A stretch of 64,000 bases of DNA from an uncultured Synergistales bacterium (GTDB lineage Bacteria > Synergistota > Synergistia > Synergistales > Aminobacteriaceae): positions 77,090 to 141,089 of the forward strand of contig CAJOCL010000005.1 of the NCBI GenBank assembly GCA_905233565.1, in the 5' to 3' direction. Position numbers and translations under genes: made by a program. The notes below the pieces were generated by a model. That model did not search any database. It was not told the origin of the DNA and saw nothing but the letters and a program-made list of their open reading frames with translations. This document shows positions 11,585-41,731 of this stretch, in pieces. Position 1 is the first letter of the stretch. Every line of letters starts with the position of its first letter.

Positions 11585-11606
11585 TATAATTCAGGGAGCC
11601 TATAAA

Positions 11607-12098
11607 ATGAATATATATTTTTCAATCGGTTCAAATCTCGGCAACAGATTGCAGAATTTACGGACTGCATCACAGAGGCTTGAGGAGTTAGGGGAAATTT
11701 CGGCAAAAAGCAGCGTTTTTGAAACTGCCGCATGGGGAGGAGTAAAGCAGCCTGATTATTTGAATGCCTGCCTGAAAGTCAAAACTTCAAAAACTGTTGA
11801 GCCTTTTGAAATTTTGAAGACGGTTAAAAATTTTGAAACTGAGATAGGCCGCGTCCCTTCAGTTCATTGGGGGCCGAGAAAAATTGATATAGACATAATA
11901 ATGATTGATGATTTAATTTTTCACTCTCAGATTTTGTCGATACCTCACGCCCGAATGTCAGAGAGATTATTCGTTCTCGTTCCGTTAAAAGAAATTCTGC
12001 CTTCAGATTTCAGGCACCCTGAGAATAATTTAACGGTTGAAAAAATGATTAAAGCCCTTGATAATGAGCCGTACCCCCTGCGTATAACTGACTTATAA
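11607..12098 (+). CDS. folK: HPPK, 6-hydroxymethyl-7,8-dihydropterin pyrophosphokinase
   Basis: A 163-residue folate-pathway enzyme that transfers pyrophosphate from ATP to 6-hydroxymethyl-dihydropterin, giving the substrate of FolP. Family marks: SIGSNLGNRLQNL at the start, FETAAWGG..QPDYLNA, and the catalytic region GRVPSVHWGPRKIDIDIIMI, followed by IPHARMSERLFVLVPL. Length is typical. The ATG lies behind AGGGAGCC. Its partner folP is 39 kb away on the other strand, so the folate genes are split. Its stop overlaps the 3' end of the convergent ruvC remnant by 6 bp. Confidence 0.96.
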   Translation: MNIYFSIGSNLGNRLQNLRTASQRLEELGEISAKSSVFETAAWGGVKQPDYLNACLKVKTSKTVEPFEILKTVKNFETEIGRVPSVHWGPRKIDIDIIMIDDLIFHSQILSIPHARMSERLFVLVPLKEILPSDFRHPENNLTVEKMIKALDNEPYPLRITDL

Positions 12099-12522
12099 CG
12101 CAAAACCTGCAACAGCGGCGGCCAGTGCATCAGCCGTATCATCAGGCTTGGGAATTTCATTCAGGAAAAGCATATCGCGTATTTTGTGCTGAATTGTTGA
12201 TTTGTCGGCTCTTCCGTTTCCGCATAAAAATAATTTTATGTGATTCGGTGCCGGTTCAATGACGGGTAAATTATTCTGTGCTGCCAGAAGCATTATAACG
12301 CCCCTTGCCTGATAAACCAACCGAAATAAAATCAGGACTGTTTATCAATATTTGCTCCTGAAGTGAATTATATATCTTTAATAATCTTTCAGTGAAGGAC
12401 ATTGCCGGACTTGTCGTTATACAGCCGTAATTAAGTGCTGTAAGTTCAAATCCGGCTTTCAACACGGCCCCGTAGCCTACGCGGGCGAGACCGGGATCTA
12501 TTCCCAGACAAATTCTGCACAA
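12093..12522 (-). pseudogene. ruvC: Disrupted ruvC (Holliday junction resolvase), internal deletion with frameshift
   Basis: Two adjacent reading frames together match RuvC. The first part (from TTG 12522) has ICLGIDPGLARVGYG with the first catalytic Asp, and runs to SPDFISV. The second part, in another frame, continues with QARGVIMLLAAQNNLPVIEPAP, then KSTIQHKIRDML and DDTADALAAA with the last catalytic aspartates. The intervening segment, which in RuvC holds the catalytic Glu (E66 of E. coli) and the xxFxxxN motif, is missing. Compared with E. coli about 48 nt are replaced by 7 nt, a net loss near 41 nt that also shifts the frame. As written the gene cannot make active RuvC. It follows yebC by 3 bp, the classic yebC-ruvC order. 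An assembly error is the other explanation. Confidence 0.88.
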
Positions 12523-12525
12523 ATA

Positions 12526-13281
12526 TTAAGCGTCCTCAATCTGTGATGCGATTTCGTCAGGGATTTCAAAATTTGAATAAACGTTCTGAACATCATCATG
12601 TTCTTCAAGGGCATCAATGAGCCTCAAGACTTTACGTGCTGCCTCAGCGTCGGAAATTTCAACGGGAGTTTTAGCAATCATTGAGACTTCAGCATTTTCA
12701 ACGACATATTTAGCCTCTTCAAGTGCTTTCTGTAACGTATCCAAATCTGAAGGTTCTGAATAAAGCGTGAATCCCTCATCGCCGGCTTCCATGTCTGACA
12801 TGCCGTTATCAAGGCCGAGAGTCATTAAAGCGTCCTCGTCGAGATTTTCGCCTTTTACTTCAATAACGCCCTTTCTGTCGAACATCCAGGCAACTGAGCC
12901 TGACTCGCCCATCTGTCCGCCGTTCCTTGCGAGAAGTGCGCGGATTTCAGGCGTTGTCCTGTTTCTGTTATCAGTCATGACGTTTACGAGTACGGCGATT
13001 CCTGAAGGTCCGTAAGCCTCGTAGGTAAGTTCGTCATAAGTTATGTCGCCGAGTTCTCCCGTTCCGCGCTTAATTGCACGGGTTATATTATCGTTAGGGA
13101 CACTGACGGCCTTTGCGCGTTCGATTGCAGTTTTAAGGCGCATATTCATGGCCGGATCTCCTCCGCCGTCCTTAGCTGCGATAATTATTGCACGTACTAA
13201 TTTCTGGAATAAATTTCCGCGTTTTGCGTCCTGAGCTGCTTTGCGATGCTTAATATTTGCCCATTTTGAATGACCTGACAA
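12526..13281 (-). CDS. yebC: YebC/PmpR family protein
   Basis: A 251-residue member of the TACO1/YebC family, opening with the invariant MSGHSKWANIKHRKAAQDAKRG. Further marks are GGGDPAMNMRLKTAIERAKA, YEAYGPSGIAVLVNVMTDNRNRT and GGQMGESGSVAWMFDRKG. Members have been described both as transcription regulators and, more recently, as ribosome-associated factors easing translation of difficult motifs such as polyproline. It sits between nadE (33 bp upstream) and ruvC (3 bp downstream) on the minus strand and probably shares their transcript. The ATG has AGGAGTGATTTA upstream. Confidence 0.96.
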   Translation of the reverse strand: MSGHSKWANIKHRKAAQDAKRGNLFQKLVRAIIIAAKDGGGDPAMNMRLKTAIERAKAVSVPNDNITRAIKRGTGELGDITYDELTYEAYGPSGIAVLVNVMTDNRNRTTPEIRALLARNGGQMGESGSVAWMFDRKGVIEVKGENLDEDALMTLGLDNGMSDMEAGDEGFTLYSEPSDLDTLQKALEEAKYVVENAEVSMIAKTPVEISDAEAARKVLRLIDALEEHDDVQNVYSNFEIPDEIASQIEDA

Positions 13282-13313: not shown

Positions 13314-14027
13314 TTATGGCCTGAAGATAGGAACTGCCCTGCGTTTGTGTTCGCTGCGCCTGTGCATTGCGTCAATCTTTTCTTTTGCTGAAAAATCATC
13401 AATTTTCCCTGTCGCTAAATATTCATCAAGAACATCATATGAAAAACCCATATCGCCCTCATCTGTCTGGCCTTCAGTTAAGCCGGCACTGGGAGCCTTA
13501 GCAATGATTTTTTCGGGAACGCCGAGAATTTTTGCCATTGCCCGGATTTCGCGTTTCAGAAAACTTACAAGCGGCATAAGGTCTGAACCTGAGTCGCCGT
13601 ATTTCGTGAAGTATCCTGTTTCATATTCTGATCTGTTGCTTGTTCCGCAGACAAGGAGATTTTTAGACTGCCCGATTGCGTAAAGGGTAACCATTCGCAG
13701 ACGTGCTTTAATGTTTGAAAGTGAAAGCGTGCTGATTTCTGAGCCTATGGAACTGCAAAGAGCGTCAAAAGTATCTGACAGGTCAACGCGCATATGTTTA
13801 ACGTTCAGAGTTTCAGCAAGTAATACTGCGTCGTCCTCATCATTTTTAATGCTGTGACACGGCATAATAACGCCCAATACACCATCATGCCCCAGAGCCT
13901 CGCGACCCAATGCAGCAAGTACCGAGCTGTCGATACCGCCCGAAAGTCCGAGAATTATTCCTGAGGCTCCTGCACTTTTCACTTCATTTTGAAGCCATTT
14001 TTCACAACGGATAATAACATCACGCAA
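13314..14027 (-). CDS. nadE: Ammonia-dependent NAD+ synthetase
   Basis: A 237-residue NadE that amidates nicotinic acid adenine dinucleotide to NAD+ with ATP. The PP-loop LSGGIDSSVLAALG is at residues 27-41. Also visible are VCGTSNRSEYETGYFTKYGD, LKREIRAMAKILG and the KAPSAGLTEGQTDEGDMGFSY segment that binds the substrate. There is no N-terminal nitrilase (glutaminase) domain, so ammonia is the likely nitrogen source, which suits an ammonia-rich amino-acid fermenter. The TTG start has GAGAGGAAT upstream. It leads the nadE-yebC-ruvC operon. Confidence 0.95.
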   Translation of the reverse strand: MRDVIIRCEKWLQNEVKSAGASGIILGLSGGIDSSVLAALGREALGHDGVLGVIMPCHSIKNDEDDAVLLAETLNVKHMRVDLSDTFDALCSSIGSEISTLSLSNIKARLRMVTLYAIGQSKNLLVCGTSNRSEYETGYFTKYGDSGSDLMPLVSFLKREIRAMAKILGVPEKIIAKAPSAGLTEGQTDEGDMGFSYDVLDEYLATGKIDDFSAKEKIDAMHRRSEHKRRAVPIFRP

Positions 14028-15210: not shown

Positions 15211-17643
15211 TCAACCGAGAAGCCCCGTTAAAATCCTGACACCTTCCATAGCATCTTTAGCGTAGAAGTCAGCACCTGCATAATTTGCAAGTTCAGGCGT
15301 AAGGACTGCGCCCCCTGCAATGATCTTGACATCAGGGCATGAAGCCTTTAATTTCGTTATGGTCTCCTTCATGCTTGTAACTGTCGTAGTCATTAACGCG
15401 CTCAGGCCGACGACATTAACGCCGCGATTGATTACGGCCTCGACAATTTTTTCCGGCTGAACATCTTTGCCCAAGTCGATAACGTCAAAATTATAATTTT
15501 CAAAAATAGTTCTCACTATATTTTTTCCTATGTCATGGACATCGCCGTAAACGGTTGCGAGAATGACAGGGCCTTTAGCTTTTCCTGCGTTTTCTGAGTT
15601 TTCATTTTCCATTGAGAGCGATAAGACTTCAAAGGCAGATTTAGCGGCTTCAGCGGATTTTATGAGCTGAGGGAGAAATAATTTCCCGGCCTCGTAATCC
15701 TTTCCGACAGTATCAAGCGCAGGTACTATGTTATTTTCAATTATTTCAAGAGGCTTTGAAGATTTCAGCATTTCGCGCGTTATATTAGCTGCCTCATCTT
15801 TCAGACCCTTTATGATTGAAGCGTTTAACCCCTCCTGTATTTCCCGTTTTTCGTGTACTTCCTGTTTTCCCTGTTGTTCCTGTTTAATTACAGGCTGTAG
15901 CGGTGCTGAATGAAGCTCACAATAAGATATATAATCCTGCATTTCTTTTTCACCGCCTGAAAGCAGGTTCCAAGCGTATAAAGTCTCTTTCAGGTCAGTA
16001 TCGCCGGGATTTATTATAGCCCCGTCAAGCCCCTGCATTATCGCAGCGATCATCATAGTTCTGTTGACAAGCGACCTTCTGGGCAGCCCGAAAGAAACGT
16101 TGCTCAATCCGAGAACTGTAGAGACTCCAAGCTCATTTTTGACTAATTTTACTGCTTTCAGTGTTTCAGGAACTAATTTCTGCTGAGCCGATGCCGTCAA
16201 AGTCAGGCAGTCAATCAAAATATTTCTTCTTTCAATGCCCATGCTTTCCGCAGCTTCGACAATTCTGCGGGCAATCGACAGCCTCTCTTCCGCCGTTTCA
16301 GGAATGCCGTTATCATCAAGCGTAAGACCCAAGACGCAGGCACCGTATTTTTTCGCAACAGGTAAGATATTCTCAAGGCTTGAAGATTTCCCGTTCACCG
16401 AGTTCAAGAGTGGTTTACCGTTGTAAATTCTTGCAGCCGTTTCGAGTGTCTTGTAGTCCGAACTGTCTATCTGTACCGGCAGATTGACAACGCCCTGAAT
16501 TTCGATTAACGAACGCTTTAACACTTCAGGTTCATCAATATCCGGCAATCCTGCGTTCAAGTCAAGAATATCTGCTCCCTGTTCCTGCTGTTTAACAGCT
16601 TCTTTCAGCAAATAATCAGTATTTCCCTCTCTGAGAGCTTTTTGAAGCATTTTTTTGCCGGTAGGGTTTAACCTTTCGCCGATGACTACGAATTTACCGC
16701 CGAATGTTACGACTTTTGACGGTGAGCAGACAATTGTTAAATCTTGAACGGTTCTTTTTTTTGAACGGCCTGAAGTTTTTTTGATTACGGCATTTTTCAT
16801 GGCCGTTATGTGTTCTGGAGTAGTTCCGCAGCAGCCGCCGAGAATATTAACGCCCAATTCAGCAAATTTACATGATATTTCGGCGAACTCTTCAGGCTTT
16901 ACATCATAGTATGATACTCCGTCCCTCATAACGGGTAATCCTGCGTTAGGCTGTACCATTACGGGAATATGCGAACATGAACAGAAGCGTTCAACAATTG
17001 GCAATAACTGCGAGGGGCCAAGAGAACAGTTTACGCCCAGAGCGTCAATGCCCAAACCCTCAAGAGTTGCTGAAACCGCCTCAACGTTTGCCCCGAAGAA
17101 TGTACGGCCTGACTCCTCAAAACTCATTGTGGCGAATATCGGAAGCGTTGAATTTTCCCTTGCTGCCAGGACAGCCGCTTTAAGTTCGTATAAATCCGTG
17201 AAAGTTTCAAGGAGAATTACATCACATAAATTTTTCCCTGCAATGACCATTTCAGATACAGCGTCATAAATTTCATCGAACGAGGCATCTCCTGAAGGGT
17301 ACATAACCCGCCCCGTTGATCCTATGTCGAGAGCAACATAAACATTTTTCCCGTCTGAATTTCTTTCATCAGCAGCATTACGGGCAATTTTAAGACCTGA
17401 AGTTATTACGTCTTTTACGGTGTAACCTGAATTTTTGAGTTTGAATTTATTTGCGCCGAAAGTGTTTGCTGTTATGAAATCGGCACCGGCATTTATATAT
17501 TCAATATGAACGGATTTTATTAACTCAGGGTTAGTCAAGTTTAAGATTTCGGGAATTTCGCGGAGTTTCAAGCCTCTTGACTGTAACATCGTACCCATTG
17601 CGCCGTCAAAGAAATATATTTTTTCCTGATTGAACCTGAACAT
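15211..17643 (-). CDS. metH: [18 protein letters not shown] methionine synthase, short form without reactivation domain
   Basis: An 810-residue enzyme that moves a methyl group from methyltetrahydrofolate to homocysteine via cobalamin. Residues 1-290 form the homocysteine/Zn domain, with the zinc cysteines in GVNCSLGPSQ and GGCCGTTPEHI. Residues 310-560 form the pterin-binding barrel (GERLNPTGKK, ILDLNAGLPDIDE). Residues 600-810 are the B12 cap and Rossmann domain with the cobalt-ligand histidine in GDVHDIGKNIV. The C-terminal AdoMet-binding reactivation domain of full-length MetH (about 1200 residues) is absent. Reactivation must come from another protein or be unneeded under strict anoxia. 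Related corrinoid methyltransferases are possible, but the zinc domain favours MetH. ATG behind AAAGGGA. Confidence 0.92.
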   Translation of the reverse strand: MFRFNQEKIYFFDGAMGTMLQSRGLKLREIPEILNLTNPELIKSVHIEYINAGADFITANTFGANKFKLKNSGYTVKDVITSGLKIARNAADERNSDGKNVYVALDIGSTGRVMYPSGDASFDEIYDAVSEMVIAGKNLCDVILLETFTDLYELKAAVLAARENSTLPIFATMSFEESGRTFFGANVEAVSATLEGLGIDALGVNCSLGPSQLLPIVERFCSCSHIPVMVQPNAGLPVMRDGVSYYDVKPEEFAEISCKFAELGVNILGGCCGTTPEHITAMKNAVIKKTSGRSKKRTVQDLTIVCSPSKVVTFGGKFVVIGERLNPTGKKMLQKALREGNTDYLLKEAVKQQEQGADILDLNAGLPDIDEPEVLKRSLIEIQGVVNLPVQIDSSDYKTLETAARIYNGKPLLNSVNGKSSSLENILPVAKKYGACVLGLTLDDNGIPETAEERLSIARRIVEAAESMGIERRNILIDCLTLTASAQQKLVPETLKAVKLVKNELGVSTVLGLSNVSFGLPRRSLVNRTMMIAAIMQGLDGAIINPGDTDLKETLYAWNLLSGGEKEMQDYISYCELHSAPLQPVIKQEQQGKQEVHEKREIQEGLNASIIKGLKDEAANITREMLKSSKPLEIIENNIVPALDTVGKDYEAGKLFLPQLIKSAEAAKSAFEVLSLSMENENSENAGKAKGPVILATVYGDVHDIGKNIVRTIFENYNFDVIDLGKDVQPEKIVEAVINRGVNVVGLSALMTTTVTSMKETITKLKASCPDVKIIAGGAVLTPELANYAGADFYAKDAMEGVRILTGLLG

Positions 17644-30218: not shown

Positions 30219-33200
30219 TTATTTCTTCATAAAGAACATTCCTGCCAAGAAAATCATTATGCTCCAAGTTCCAACATCACAGCCTCCGCTTTGACTTTCA
30301 TTTTCGTGTATTGTGGCGACAACGGGAGCGTAGAACCTTCCGGCGGTAAAGTCAGCGGAGAGTCTAACAACGTCAGTTGAATCTGTGAATGTGAATGATG
30401 CATCGAGATCTTCAGAGTCCGCAAGAAGCACTAGCGGTAAGCCTTCCGGTGGAGTCACGTTGAGCTGTACGGTGAATGAATATGTGCCTGTGGCTGATGG
30501 AGTGAAGGCCGGGAGGACTGCTAGGATTACGGTGGAGTCGTTCGCCGATGATAAGCCAGATTGTGAGGCGGGAGGGGCATAGGCTGATGACATTGCGCTT
30601 GAAGGCCAAGTTATGATTACGCCGTTGTCGCAGTAAACATCGTTGCGATCAATGTTAGGGCAACTGCTAAGGTCTAAGGCTGTAAGCTGATTTTCTTTGC
30701 ACCAAAGTCTTCGCAAAGCAGTATCATTGCTCACATTCAGCGTAGTAAGTCTGTTGCCCGTACAGCCCAGAGTCTCCAGTTTGGTTTTGTTGCTCACATC
30801 TAATGCGGTAAGTTGATTATCATAGCAATATAATTGCTGCAAGGCGGTACATTCGCTTACATTTAGTGAAGCCAGCTTGTTATAGGAGCAATCAAGAATC
30901 CACAAAGCGGTACACCCGCTGATATTCAAAGTGGCAAGCTGGTTTTCTCCACATGATAGCTCCTGCAGGTCAGTACAACCGCTCACATCCAAGTCTGTCA
31001 AGTTATTCCCTTCGCAGACTAGGGTTTTCAGGTTTACGAAATACTTAATTCCTTGCAATGAGTTAATACCATAGTAGCCATAGTGGAATACATTTATTTC
31101 TGTCGTATTTTCTATTTCTGTTCTGCTGAGAATGCCGTCTTTGTCTGTGTCAATTTCTTCGCTGATATACCTGCGAAACAGCTCATCCGGGAAATGCGCC
31201 TCATCAATCGGAATATTTTCCAAAACGACATCATCTGAGGCGGGAATATCATCCGAAACAGGAATATCCTCGCTCTCAGGCTCAAGTGTCAAGTCCTGTA
31301 TAACATCACCCAAATGGATAACTATTTCAACGGAGTTGGACTTATACTTTTCCTTTGAAGCCGTTACTGTGTAAGTTCCAATTTCTTGTCCTGTGAGATC
31401 GAAATAATACAGCCCGTTTACGTCTGTTGTGGTTGATTTCAGATTTTTATCGCTGCCTGTCCTGCGAACCCTGACAGCTGCTCCGGCTATGTATGAGTTG
31501 TCGGAAGCGTTCCGAATTGTTCCGCTAAGTGAAATCTCAGAAGGAGTCAGAGTCTTGTCCGCGCTCACATCTTCAGATGACACTATTGCGACATCAATGG
31601 ACTCTGAAATATAGCCGGTCTTGTCGAAACTCAGGATATATTTTCCTGCTTCAAGCGATATTGCGTATTTCCCTTGAGCGTCAGTAAATGTTCTTCCAGC
31701 CAGTACAGACTTGATTTTGCCGTTCCGTAGTTTTTTCTCGGAGGCTGTTACGCTGACACCTTCAAGCACTTTGTTCGGATCTGTTTTGTCCCTGACAGTG
31801 CCGTATATTGTTCCGAAATTTGCATCTTGAGCCTCGATCCCAACTTTATCAAAAGCGGCTTTGATTGCAGCGAGTTTTTCGGCGGACAAGTTGATTTTCA
31901 TCGCAGCCCAGATTACGCACCTTCGGACATCATAGAAATTTGAGGTAGCGTCAAGTCCCATGTGCATAGACTCGTACCAGACTTTTCCAAGTTCGTCCCA
32001 AGTCAGGCCGTTTGCAGGATTATTATCCTTGTGCATGAGGTAGGCAACATGACCAACGAATAATAATCCGAACAAGTGTGCATCTTGCTTAGGATTTTTT
32101 TTGAGAACTTTTAGTTGGTATCCTGCCAACGAGTTTTCGTTATATGGATTTGCTAAGTCTCTGTAGCACTCGAAATTTTCTCCGTATGCCACGATACCTG
32201 AATACCCGCCATGTCGCCAATCTTCTGCTTTTATGCAGGCGAATATATCAGCATATCCTTCATTTAAACTGCTGACATAAATATTGTTAGTACCAGCAAG
32301 ACAGCAAGAAGCAATGTATTGCAACACGGCATGAGTCGTTTCATGCGTCAGAACCTCAATGTCAAATGCTTCGGTGTACCTGTAATCGTCTTTTTTATCC
32401 GTGATCCATAACTGTTGGAGTCCGTGATTCCAAGCGGCATTACTTTTTCCGATGCTGAGTTTTAACCCTTTAAGGATTTCTAAATCATAGGCGTGAACAA
32501 TAACTTCGACCTTTCCGCCTTTGCCGTCAAGAGAATCTCTGCCGAAACGGTTTTTCCACCACTTCATAATGTCTCGCATATTAGTGTACGCGGACACTGC
32601 TACGGGATCATTCCAAGTGTTGGTAAGACTTTTAACAGGGGACAAAATATTCTCTTTAATTTCAACATGGAGTTTGGGATCATACATTACATAATGGATA
32701 CTGCTTGTGCGTCTGTGTATTTCTATTTTTCGTAAAACATCAAAGCTGACCGTGTCTCCGGATTCATTTTTCCCATCTGCGCTCACAGTGTTGAACGCCA
32801 TGTTTGACATGTTTATGATTATCTGTCCCGTATCAGCATTCACTAACACATCATCATCAGCGTATTCACTTCCTGATGTTCCGTAAACTCTCACGACATA
32901 CGCATAAACGGGTTTATCCGCGTAATCCTCAAGAGAATACACTATACGTTCTGTGCGCTCCGTATCAATCTCAACATCTCCTGAATACGCAGAGGCAACA
33001 ATAGACTCAGCCTGCGAGGCCGTAAGATTAATCTTCATGTCCGCGCTGTCAAGAATATTTGACGCAAGAATGCTCGAATGCATGAAATCTCCCCTGCCTG
33101 AAGCATTAACAGAGGCCATCAAACTGCGCCCGTATACTTTCACGCCTTTGTACATTTGCTGGAACGAGTATTCAGCCCCGTAACTGTTGGAAGTTGCGAG

Positions 33201-34073
33201 AAATGTTTTAAGCTCTTTATCTGGACTCCTCATCCCAAGTTCATCACGGAGAACCGTAACAGCATCGAGAGCATCATCGGCATTCCGAATATCAAAGCTG
33301 ACGTACTGCCCCTCAATTTCTGTAATATCTCCAGAATCATTGCGTGTTATCCCGATGTCTCCGCTTGAGGCTTCCTCAATGCTTAGTACTTTGATTGCGC
33401 TGTTATCTCGTGTGCGTCTGCGGATTACCCGAAGCTCAAACGTCTTAGGCTCTGCTGATTTCCCGTTGTAACTTGCCGTTGCCGTCAATGTTACGTCTGT
33501 GTCTTCAGCCTGCCTCGTTACAGTACCGTCCGTAGCTACTGCCCCCGAACTGCTTGACCACGAAATATCCGCGCTGTTAATTTTTGTAGGGAGCGTCAGA
33601 TTTTGTGTAACGTATTTCGGGTTGTCGCCGTCAGCATAACCTATGACGATTTCGCTGAGAGAGTATTCGGCAATGAAAATGTCAGTGTCAAGCCACCGTG
33701 CATAAAGCGTAATATCCTGCGTAACCTTGTCCCCGTTTTCGCCGAACTTGAATAAAACCGTGCGCCCTTTGTCCTTGAACCAGCCTGAAAACACATAACC
33801 TTCTTTTACAGGGTTTTCAGGTTTCGTTACTGTACCGCCCGCAGGGACTTTCTGACTTGTTACGCTGCTTCCGCCGTCTGAGTCAAATGTTACGGTGTAA
33901 TATATCTGACTCTGGTCTGGTACGGGGGTAACGTCAGGACTTTGATTCGGTGTCGGATCATTATTGACGCTTACCTCACTTCCGCTGCTTCCTCCGCAGC
34001 CGCCTGTACACATTACGGCTGTGAAAAGGAGCATACCCAACATGAATAACGCGAAAAACTTACGATTATACAT
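30219..34073 (-). CDS. Large secreted thermolysin-type metallopeptidase with InlB repeat, carboxypeptidase-regulatory-like and leucine-rich repeats, and Synergist-CTERM-like tail
   Basis: A 1284-residue exported multidomain protein. Order: signal sequence with Cys22/Cys26 (possible lipoprotein); an InlB/Listeria-Bacteroides repeat (about 57-128, VTFDSDGGS...GWF..LYARW); an Ig-like strand region (135-215); an FTP/PepSY-type propeptide (230-420); an M4-like gluzincin domain with zinc motif H577-E-T-T-H581 and third ligand Glu605 in NEGYAD; two carboxypeptidase-regulatory-like beta domains (about 775-945); a calcium-loop-like DTDKDGILS; five leucine-rich repeats of the L..L.V..CT.L..L.C..N.L type (about 1030-1150); and a C-terminal SGGCDVG, helix and KK. 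It is likely a surface protease displayed to host or microbial targets. ATG behind AGGAGGCA. Confidence 0.9.
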   Translation of the reverse strand: MYNRKFFALFMLGMLLFTAVMCTGGCGGSSGSEVSVNNDPTPNQSPDVTPVPDQSQIYYTVTFDSDGGSSVTSQKVPAGGTVTKPENPVKEGYVFSGWFKDKGRTVLFKFGENGDKVTQDITLYARWLDTDIFIAEYSLSEIVIGYADGDNPKYVTQNLTLPTKINSADISWSSSSGAVATDGTVTRQAEDTDVTLTATASYNGKSAEPKTFELRVIRRRTRDNSAIKVLSIEEASSGDIGITRNDSGDITEIEGQYVSFDIRNADDALDAVTVLRDELGMRSPDKELKTFLATSNSYGAEYSFQQMYKGVKVYGRSLMASVNASGRGDFMHSSILASNILDSADMKINLTASQAESIVASAYSGDVEIDTERTERIVYSLEDYADKPVYAYVVRVYGTSGSEYADDDVLVNADTGQIIINMSNMAFNTVSADGKNESGDTVSFDVLRKIEIHRRTSSIHYVMYDPKLHVEIKENILSPVKSLTNTWNDPVAVSAYTNMRDIMKWWKNRFGRDSLDGKGGKVEVIVHAYDLEILKGLKLSIGKSNAAWNHGLQQLWITDKKDDYRYTEAFDIEVLTHETTHAVLQYIASCCLAGTNNIYVSSLNEGYADIFACIKAEDWRHGGYSGIVAYGENFECYRDLANPYNENSLAGYQLKVLKKNPKQDAHLFGLLFVGHVAYLMHKDNNPANGLTWDELGKVWYESMHMGLDATSNFYDVRRCVIWAAMKINLSAEKLAAIKAAFDKVGIEAQDANFGTIYGTVRDKTDPNKVLEGVSVTASEKKLRNGKIKSVLAGRTFTDAQGKYAISLEAGKYILSFDKTGYISESIDVAIVSSEDVSADKTLTPSEISLSGTIRNASDNSYIAGAAVRVRRTGSDKNLKSTTTDVNGLYYFDLTGQEIGTYTVTASKEKYKSNSVEIVIHLGDVIQDLTLEPESEDIPVSDDIPASDDVVLENIPIDEAHFPDELFRRYISEEIDTDKDGILSRTEIENTTEINVFHYGYYGINSLQGIKYFVNLKTLVCEGNNLTDLDVSGCTDLQELSCGENQLATLNISGCTALWILDCSYNKLASLNVSECTALQQLYCYDNQLTALDVSNKTKLETLGCTGNRLTTLNVSNDTALRRLWCKENQLTALDLSSCPNIDRNDVYCDNGVIITWPSSAMSSAYAPPASQSGLSSANDSTVILAVLPAFTPSATGTYSFTVQLNVTPPEGLPLVLLADSEDLDASFTFTDSTDVVRLSADFTAGRFYAPVVATIHENESQSGGCDVGTWSIMIFLAGMFFMKK

Positions 34074-40582: not shown

Positions 40583-40676
40583 GTCCGGCTCAATGCGGCG
40601 GAAACCTGCGAATCGTGTCAGGTTCGGAAGAAAGCAGCACTAAGCAGAATTTTTCGGGTGCCATTGAATACCGGAC
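40583..40676 (+). ncRNA. ffs: Bacterial small signal recognition particle RNA (4.5S type)
   Basis: The conserved apical domain is clear: GTGTCAGGTTCGGAAGAAAGC followed by AGCACTAAGC (split here for length), the binding site of Ffh and the catalytic tetraloop region GGAA. The arms pair all the way out: GTCCGG (40583-40588) with CCGGAC (40671-40676) and TCAATG (40590-40595) with CATTGA (40662-40667). Length is 94 nt, typical of the short SRP RNA without an Alu domain. It targets nascent membrane proteins with Ffh/FtsY. The last 37 nt overlap, in antisense, the 3' end of the glycosyltransferase gene at 40640. Confidence 0.93.
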
Positions 40677-41731
40677 ATTATTTCGTTGAACGTCTTCACT
40701 GTTTCACGCTCTGAAAATTCATTCCCCAATTTAAGCGAAACTTCACGCAGGTCATTTACGAAATCAGCGTTATTATAATTATCGTAAATCCTGAATAAAT
40801 CCGGCAGAAGGTCATCAAAATTATTTTTCCCGCAGCGTTCGGAAAAATAACACTTAACGGCATCTTCAAGATTTTCACTTTTCAGCTGTCCGAAATAACC
40901 TGAACACATGGCGATTACGGGACGCATTGAATAAGCTGCTTCCATTGCTGAAGTTGCGGAGGCAAAGACAACATTTGCAGACTCGATATATTTTTTCGGG
41001 TTATCCTGAGTGCCTATTATATTAACGCATTTACGGCCAAGAGATTTATTGAGCTTGTGTGCAAAAATTTTCAGCTTATATAATCTCCAGCCCCCTCCGC
41101 CGACAATATTAATCTTGAAATCCGGTATATGTTCCTGAATTAATTTTATATTGTCAAGCATGTGAAATATTCCCGGTGTTTTGTATCTGCTTAATCTTCC
41201 GAAGCATAAAATATTGAAATTTTTTCGTTCGGGAAGTTCTGACGGTTCAAAAAATATATCAAGCGGACGTGTCATTTTTATAACCGGGATATCTGTATTA
41301 AGTTCGTGTAACTGTTTTAATGTGTCAGGTTCAAACGCCGTGAAAACGCTGCTGTATTTAACCAGTGATTCTATATCGCGTCCGGGCCTGTCAGTTTTTT
41401 CAACAGGATCAAGAAAGTAAGTTATAACCGGCGCACCCGTAATTTTCTTTATTCTCGCTGCCAGCGGAAATGAGCGTCTCGGATCCGTCATTATAACGTC
41501 CGGCCTGAAAAGTTTAGCTCTAATGTCAAAATATATATTGCTTACGCTTGGTGAAGGGCATGTTATGACTTTGAAGCCTTCATCCCTGTAACGTTTCTGA
41601 AATCCTTTTCCTGCCCATCTTCCCACTACGGCGATATTATGTCCTGCACGTTTCAGGGCTGCTCCCGTGTTCAGAATGCAGCTTGTTACGCCGTCAATCG
41701 TCAGCGCGTCCGAACAAAATAATATATTCAT
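40640..41731 (-). CDS. GT-B fold glycosyltransferase (family 4-like)
   Basis: A 363-residue glycosyltransferase with two Rossmann-like halves. The N-terminal half has ILFCSDALTIDGVTSCILNT, a [16 protein letters not shown] GT4-type opening with GV/GG loop. The C-terminal half has FNILCFGRLSRYKTPG and INIVGGGG, then AMEAAYSMRPVIAM near the donor site, where GT4 members carry E-x7-E. Acceptor and sugar are unknown. Four bp separate it from the GT10-like gene upstream. Its final codons (GIQWHPKNSA) are read from the antisense strand of the SRP RNA gene, so the C terminus is probably not conserved. ATG behind GGGAGTGAAAGA. Confidence 0.9.
   Translation of the reverse strand: MNILFCSDALTIDGVTSCILNTGAALKRAGHNIAVVGRWAGKGFQKRYRDEGFKVITCPSPSVSNIYFDIRAKLFRPDVIMTDPRRSFPLAARIKKITGAPVITYFLDPVEKTDRPGRDIESLVKYSSVFTAFEPDTLKQLHELNTDIPVIKMTRPLDIFFEPSELPERKNFNILCFGRLSRYKTPGIFHMLDNIKLIQEHIPDFKINIVGGGGWRLYKLKIFAHKLNKSLGRKCVNIIGTQDNPKKYIESANVVFASATSAMEAAYSMRPVIAMCSGYFGQLKSENLEDAVKCYFSERCGKNNFDDLLPDLFRIYDNYNNADFVNDLREVSLKLGNEFSERETVKTFNEIMSGIQWHPKNSA

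Follow-up and report, generated by a model that had tools for sequence, protein, structure and literature searches.

RuvC retained without RuvAB after probable repeated loss in a Synergistaceae genus, and a broken ruvC in one of its assemblies

Introduction

Textbook accounts have RuvC depend on RuvAB in the cell. RuvC-like resolvases also work in phages, in chloroplasts and in the mitochondria of yeast, where RuvAB is not known. In E. coli, according to sections of one study, deletions of ruvAB and of ruvC are alike in the unresolved DNA that they leave, the role of RecG is weaker in the absence of RuvABC, and RusA releases the DNA that had been trapped (PMC2716532). Parts of a 2005 survey of 117 genomes name only Wigglesworthia and Aquifex as lacking RuvAB in the presence of RecA, and both have RecG (PMC1193525). 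In isopod Wolbachia, ruvA drifts neutrally and recG is constrained, as described in portions of the report (PMC4224334). Plant organelles, which are without RuvAB, have RECG1 and RADA, and chloroplasts have the resolvase MOC1, according to excerpts of the source (PMC6981420).

The stretch of DNA analyzed here, termed the window, comprises 64,000 nt of contig CAJOCL010000005.1. The genome from which it comes (G000) is a Synergistaceae-like MAG of 2.02 Mb in 34 contigs and is 96.5% complete; the YebC protein encoded in the window shares 94% identity with that of RGIG3217 (JAFSKE010000037.1) and 92% with that of RGIG2313 (JAFRAH010000002.1), both Synergistaceae MAGs from the goat gut, so that the source is presumably a gut species of this family. 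The RuvC of RGIG3217 is of the RuvABC type and that of RGIG2313 is an orphan. None of the papers listed in literature searches describes Synergistaceae that have RuvC but not RuvAB. The best explanation for the observations described below, and on balance a probable one, is that RuvAB was lost repeatedly in this genus, that RuvC was kept as a stand-alone enzyme, and that RuvC was recently broken in the genome under study.

Absence of RuvA and RuvB across the genus

The sequence-only reading of the window, which reported a broken ruvC, had suggested looking for ruvA and ruvB elsewhere; in a genome-wide profile search, neither RuvB_C nor RuvA_N had a match in the window's genome. RuvB_C is found in 21 of the 43 genomes of the genus and absent from 22, and the split is similar among the 30 genomes with a completeness of 90% or more and a contamination of 5% or less (present in 16, absent from 14). 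RuvA_N, searched for in 25 of the 43, is absent from the same 13 genomes that are without RuvB and also from G012, in which a contig ends inside ruvB. Seven of these 13 genomes are 97% to 100% complete, besides the window's own at 96.5%. In the other nine RuvB-less genomes, ruvA was judged absent by the gene order at the locus, and the locus of G054 stops after ruvC.

The organization of the locus agrees with these searches. The order ruvC-ruvA-ruvB occurs in 19 of the 21 RuvB-bearing genomes (contig ends truncate the locus in the other two), and a spoIID-like gene lies further on in 18 of these 19 loci; in the last, that of G008, the contig ends in ruvB. (The names spoIID-like and, below, queA are presumptive and were given from the look of the sequences.) About 950 nt separate ruvB from the spoIID-like gene in G007, G019, G020, G046 and G058. 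In 18 of the 22 RuvB-less genomes, the spoIID-like gene comes immediately after ruvC, at most 138 nt away, and neither ruvA nor ruvB gives a hit. This arrangement is not seen in G022 and G054, where contigs end, in G003, which has no such locus, or in the window's genome itself, where a convergent folk gene, folK, follows ruvC. That RuvAB is present but was missed, being too divergent or lying in unassembled parts, is very improbable: the genomes are draft assemblies and the absence of ruvA from nine of them was judged at the locus rather than genome-wide, but 13 of the 25 genomes searched with both RuvB_C and RuvA_N match neither, seven of them being 97% to 100% complete, and in 18 of the 22 RuvB-less genomes the slot behind ruvC has closed up.

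Two further observations concern these loci. G007, which is 75% complete, has two ruvC-ruvA loci (G007:C51 and G007:C57) and is probably a mixture of strains. Among 80 yebC loci, nine (L034, L043, L045, L062, L074, L079, L098, L102 and L112) have a ruvC hit and no ruvA or ruvB hit in the stretch examined, which is only a lead to further orphan ruvC genes.

Repeated origin of the RuvAB-less state

The number of losses was assessed on three trees. The first, of four locus proteins, covers 42 genomes by a quick method and includes G014, G018 and G048 but not G003; the second, of the off-locus protein RecG, covers 30 genomes by a quick method; the third is a joint tree of 40 genomes under LG+G4, from which three rows (G014, G018 and G048) were excluded because they were long or were linked to long ones. 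In all three, the window's genome falls in a starred clade made up of RuvB-less genomes only, and other RuvB-less genomes are placed elsewhere, for example, G021 beside the RuvAB-bearing G049. The fewest changes of RuvAB state are six on the locus tree, six on the RecG tree and five on the joint tree, and starred branches force four, two and four, respectively. A single origin of the RuvAB-less state was rejected by the AU test under LG+G4 (p-AU 3e-196, or 3e-47 without G024 and G054), the tested group having been defined once a first tree was at hand. With one clade rejected, the RuvAB-less state therefore arose repeatedly. Because ruvA and ruvB are without a match in the window's genome and its clade consists of RuvB-less genomes only, RuvC was already an orphan there.

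Regain of ruvAB was considered for G043, G049 and G053. In a tree of RuvAB, G043 and G049 are sisters (93/91, not starred), a placement in line with descent, and G053 is unplaced. Judged from these sequences, some regain of ruvAB by recombination may still have occurred; repeated loss is the simplest reading.

Conservation and constraint of orphan RuvC

RuvC is found in 40 of the 43 genomes and is missing from G003, G012 and G048, the last two having contigs that end inside ruvB. Among the 22 RuvB-less genomes, 19 have a full-length RuvC; that of G022 is cut by a contig end, that of the window's genome is broken, and G003 has none. The 19 full-length orphan proteins cover positions 2-147 of PF02075 at 125-145 bits, compared with 144-152 bits in RuvB-bearing genomes. 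Seven columns (8, 68, 141, 144, 71, 109 and 120) are invariant in both the RuvB-less and the RuvB-bearing sets, with G022 contributing its first part only. They hold the four catalytic acids (aligned with E. coli D7, E66, D138 and D141), the aromatic residue after the Glu and two conserved lysines.

The orphan protein is also under purifying selection. Its dN/dS is 0.046-0.123 in five close RuvB-less pairs, versus 0.030-0.145 in five RuvAB-bearing pairs, and NadE gives 0.083-0.140 in the same RuvB-less pairs. Column entropy of RuvC is higher in the RuvB-less set, by a ratio of 1.73-1.79 over the RuvB-bearing set (20 versus 19 rows, or 18 versus 17 without outlying rows), whereas the four controls (YebC, NadE, the spoIID-like protein and RecG) give 0.78-1.03. 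The ten most released columns, with kinship ignored, are 21, 107, 130, 111, 122, 126, 129, 23, 104 and 135 in G016 numbering. Read from these alignments, the raised variability may reflect loss of a RuvAB-binding constraint with the nuclease kept.

The lower profile scores of the 19 full-length proteins, the higher column variability and the lack of a ruvC match in G003 would also fit a RuvC that is simply decaying in RuvB-less species, with the window's genome among the first to lose it. Such decay is improbable, however, given that orphan RuvC has a dN/dS of 0.046-0.123, versus 0.083-0.140 for NadE in the same pairs, that the catalytic columns are invariant, and that, despite several separate origins of the RuvAB-less state, ruvC is open in 19 of 19 genomes where it is full length. 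The predicted fold is likewise that of RuvC. A model of the orphan protein of RGIG2313 (locus L034, in which ruvC is followed by the spoIID-like gene) reached a mean pLDDT of 89.8 from a three-sequence alignment, with five models spanning 45.5-89.8, and matches the RuvC structures of D. radiodurans, T. thermophilus and E. coli at a TM of about 0.9 (0.91 for both 1hjr and 7xhj). RGIG2313 presumably corresponds to G042 and would hence be RuvB-less genome-wide.

RecG and other junction-processing enzymes

In the window's genome, RecG scores 704.7 bits against a cut-off of 659.4 (TIGR00643) in an open frame of 687 aa with no stops, and RecA is present and open. RecG exceeds the TIGR00643 cut-off in 29 of the 43 genomes; the count, made by hand, becomes 31 when two genomes just below the cut-off are included, G017 at 656 bits and G054 at 651 bits. 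RecG occurs in 20 of 22 RuvB-less versus 11 of 21 RuvB-bearing genomes, a complementarity with a raw Fisher p of 0.007 that is not significant on pairs (locus-protein tree). G050, a RuvB-less genome without RecG, is probably an assembly gap, since a match of about 350 bits in the RecG search, which we take to be Mfd, is also missing there. G011, 97% complete, has an orphan ruvC and a RusA-like gene and matches neither RuvAB nor RecG; its sister G056 has RecG.

The reverse of ruvAB loss is seen in G007, G008, G009, G013, G019, G020, G046, G055 and G058, which bear RuvB and have no full RecG match; G009 and G019 were scored as 100% complete. G048 has only a fragment of RecG, which may be a gap.

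RecU-like matches occur in five of 41 genomes (four over the cut-off) and RusA-like matches in six of 41. The window's genome has no match to RecU or RusA in the family profile search. RusA-like genes are present in five of 13 RuvB-less genomes (G005, G010, G011, G022 and G023) versus one of 12 RuvB-bearing genomes (G018); they may be prophage genes and could do the cutting in the RuvB-less genomes. The sequence-only reading had held that the strain, if its RuvC is lost, must resolve Holliday junctions by another route. That expectation finds a candidate in RecG, present and full length, but not in recU, or in RusA, neither of which was matched.

Without RuvAB, RuvC may be uncoupled from RecG, acting alone or having another job such as the cleavage of reversed forks, a possibility that stands well short of even. 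The phage, chloroplast and yeast mitochondrial resolvases that resemble RuvC work without a known RuvAB, and G011 combines an orphan RuvC with no RecG match. The higher frequency of RecG in RuvB-less genomes points the other way, even though it is not significant on pairs. The analysis turned up nothing that ties RecG to RuvC directly.

A broken ruvC in the window

In the window, ruvC lies on the minus strand (12522-12093) and is split into two overlapping minus-strand open reading frames. The 5ʹ half (12318-12522) is in frame from its first TTG to the lesion, 68 codons and 1 nt, beyond which the frame continues, out of register, as far as 12271; the resulting reading frame (12271-12522, 83 aa) matches PF02075 positions 2-63 at 43 bits. 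The 3ʹ half, in a shifted frame (12093-12320, minus strand, 75 aa), matches positions 78-147 at 61.8 bits and retains QARG, the lysines and the DDTADA catalytic motif. Positions 64-77 are absent in the profile search, the whole-genome search returns the same two pieces, and no open frame spans the whole family profile. Alignment with eight intact relatives shows that a 14-codon segment has lost 41 of its 42 nt at the point between 12317 and 12318 of the plus strand, with nothing added. The lost codons specify the catalytic Glu, the LFFGxN motif and the start of the next helix. The set of four catalytic acidic residues is thus incomplete, its three Asp being present but split over two frames. 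The sequence-only reading had described two recognizable, well-preserved halves and a net loss of about 41 nt that removes the catalytic Glu segment and shifts the frame, all of which the alignment and the profile gap bear out.

No second RuvC match was found elsewhere in the window's genome by whole-genome profile search, and a plasmid collection gave no match. A programmed frameshift was ruled out because the catalytic Glu segment is missing in every frame. No slippage repeat that would explain the deletion was seen at the junction, as judged by eye from the letters.

The surroundings of ruvC are conserved on one side only. Upstream, yebC (12526-13281, minus strand) and nadE (13314-14027, minus strand) are intact, and the order nadE-yebC-ruvC is that of relatives, as the sequence-only reading had it in calling the neighbors intact. 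That description does not extend downstream, where folK (11607-12098, plus strand) is convergent and overlaps the ruvC stop by 6 nt in the place occupied by ruvA or the spoIID-like gene in relatives. A rearrangement point (11600-12100) lies directly past the ruvC stop, with folK at the position of the spoIID-like gene and queA of relatives, and tblastn gave no hit for either of these two genes in the window.

Elsewhere in the window, a metH-like reading frame (15211-17643, minus strand, 810 aa) covers positions 2-858 of the 1182 of the MetH model, the C-terminal part of which is absent. A small SRP RNA (Rfam RF00169; 40582-40680, plus strand) overlaps by 41 nt the 3ʹ end of a minus-strand glycosyltransferase reading frame (40640-41731). 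A protein of 1284 aa (30219-34073, minus strand) has an unusual mix of domains, namely a thermolysin-like M4 peptidase, a Listeria-Bacteroides repeat and a leucine-rich repeat.

Age and reality of the break

Outside the gap, the other 39 RuvC proteins in the genus have 38 invariant columns, and the RuvC of the window departs from none of them; seven further invariant columns lie inside the gap. When each of the 39 was left out in turn and put to the same test, 33 showed no change and six showed one or two. A rough estimate bounds drift free of selection to about 3-5% of the branch, beyond which changes would be expected. The dS to the three nearest relatives is 1.5-2.5, with saturation for several others. 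The dN of the window's ruvC halves to the clade is 0.157-0.305, versus 0.121-0.233 for the nearest relative, G042, to the same clade; dN of YebC and NadE is likewise raised on the branch of the window's genome. From the unchanged columns and the bound on drift, the break is either very recent or an assembly error, and the view of the sequence-only reading that the lesion is recent or erroneous is borne out by the same columns.

It is quite possible, at somewhat below an even chance, that the break is an artefact of assembly or strain mixture and that the strain in nature carries an unbroken orphan RuvC, as its clade-mates do. The undecayed halves, with no change in 38 invariant columns as in 33 of the 39 others, the narrow bound on drift and the open frames of 19 of 19 fully assembled orphan RuvCs of the genus all fit an artefact. 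However, the junction, viewed by eye, appears to have no repeat long enough to mislead an assembler, and the assembly does not look rich in errors, since recG and recA are open and no other split gene was found. For the latter, all 50 mapped reading frames of the window were scanned, 20 with NCBIfam and 30 with Pfam. Among the 48 other than ruvC, no neighboring pair matches consecutive parts of one family; seven of the 48 have no family match and are not judgeable in this way, and the reading frame at 26-364 is cut by the window edge. The lesion is present in this assembly and would presumably be present in the living strain as well. By itself, a broken ruvC is a minor pseudogene, here a confirmed lesion of uncertain reality.

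A proposed route to RuvABC dismantling

In the favored account of repeated RuvAB loss with RuvC retained, the genus would have discarded the RuvAB branch-migration motor several times and retained RuvC, which would act by itself as a Holliday junction nuclease. The ancestor of the clade would have lost ruvAB from between ruvC and the downstream spoIID-like gene, and RuvC would have stayed active in the descendants, freed from the constraint of RuvAB binding. RecG or another form of migration would most likely bring junctions to cleavable sites, where RuvC would cut them. It is from the E. coli phenotypes of ruvAB, ruvC, recG and RusA (PMC2716532) that an autonomous RuvC fed by RecG or other migration was proposed. 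In the window's genome, the 41-nt deletion would have removed the catalytic Glu segment very recently, and if the lesion is real, processing of joint molecules driven by RecG would be what remains of the routes tested. Because the absence of ruvAB is repeated and orphan RuvC is intact, under purifying selection and more variable, the lesion looks like the last step in the dismantling of RuvABC where RuvC already worked without RuvAB.

A more specific version has close to an even chance. It holds that RuvC in this genus is a resolvase selected for without RuvAB after several losses and paired with RecG, that its released positions mark the surface contacting RuvAB, and that the window captures the final loss. 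We know of no mapping of the RuvC surface that contacts RuvAB.

The result worth following is the retention of RuvC without RuvAB after repeated loss rather than the lesion in the window. This retention contradicts a 2012 survey, and therein lies its interest. Repeated natural removal of RuvAB with RuvC under selection amounts to a natural genetic experiment, one that makes testable whether RuvC can use RecG or act alone, where RuvAB contacts RuvC, and which half of late recombination is dispensable.

Comparison with known systems

The RuvC of this genus corresponds to that of the E. coli RuvABC system (PF02075 / TIGR00228) in its profile match, its catalytic residues, its predicted fold and its position beside yebC. 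It differs in that 22 of 43 genomes of the genus are without a RuvB match and that RuvC itself is broken in the window's genome. Plant organelles, in the excerpts of the source, share the migration and cutting of junctions without RuvAB (PMC6981420). However, the setting is an organelle, and MOC1 is only distantly similar to the L034 RuvC model (TM about 0.6). Isopod Wolbachia, as portrayed in the relevant portions, are alike in that RuvAB becomes dispensable and RecG is kept; they represent an early neutralization of ruvA in an endosymbiont, whereas the absence of ruvAB here is complete and repeated (PMC4224334). Wigglesworthia and Aquifex aeolicus, in the parts of the survey that name them, likewise have RecA and RecG and are without RuvAB. 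These are two isolated genomes, whereas here the RuvAB-less state arose repeatedly within one genus, with ruvC kept in place (PMC1193525).
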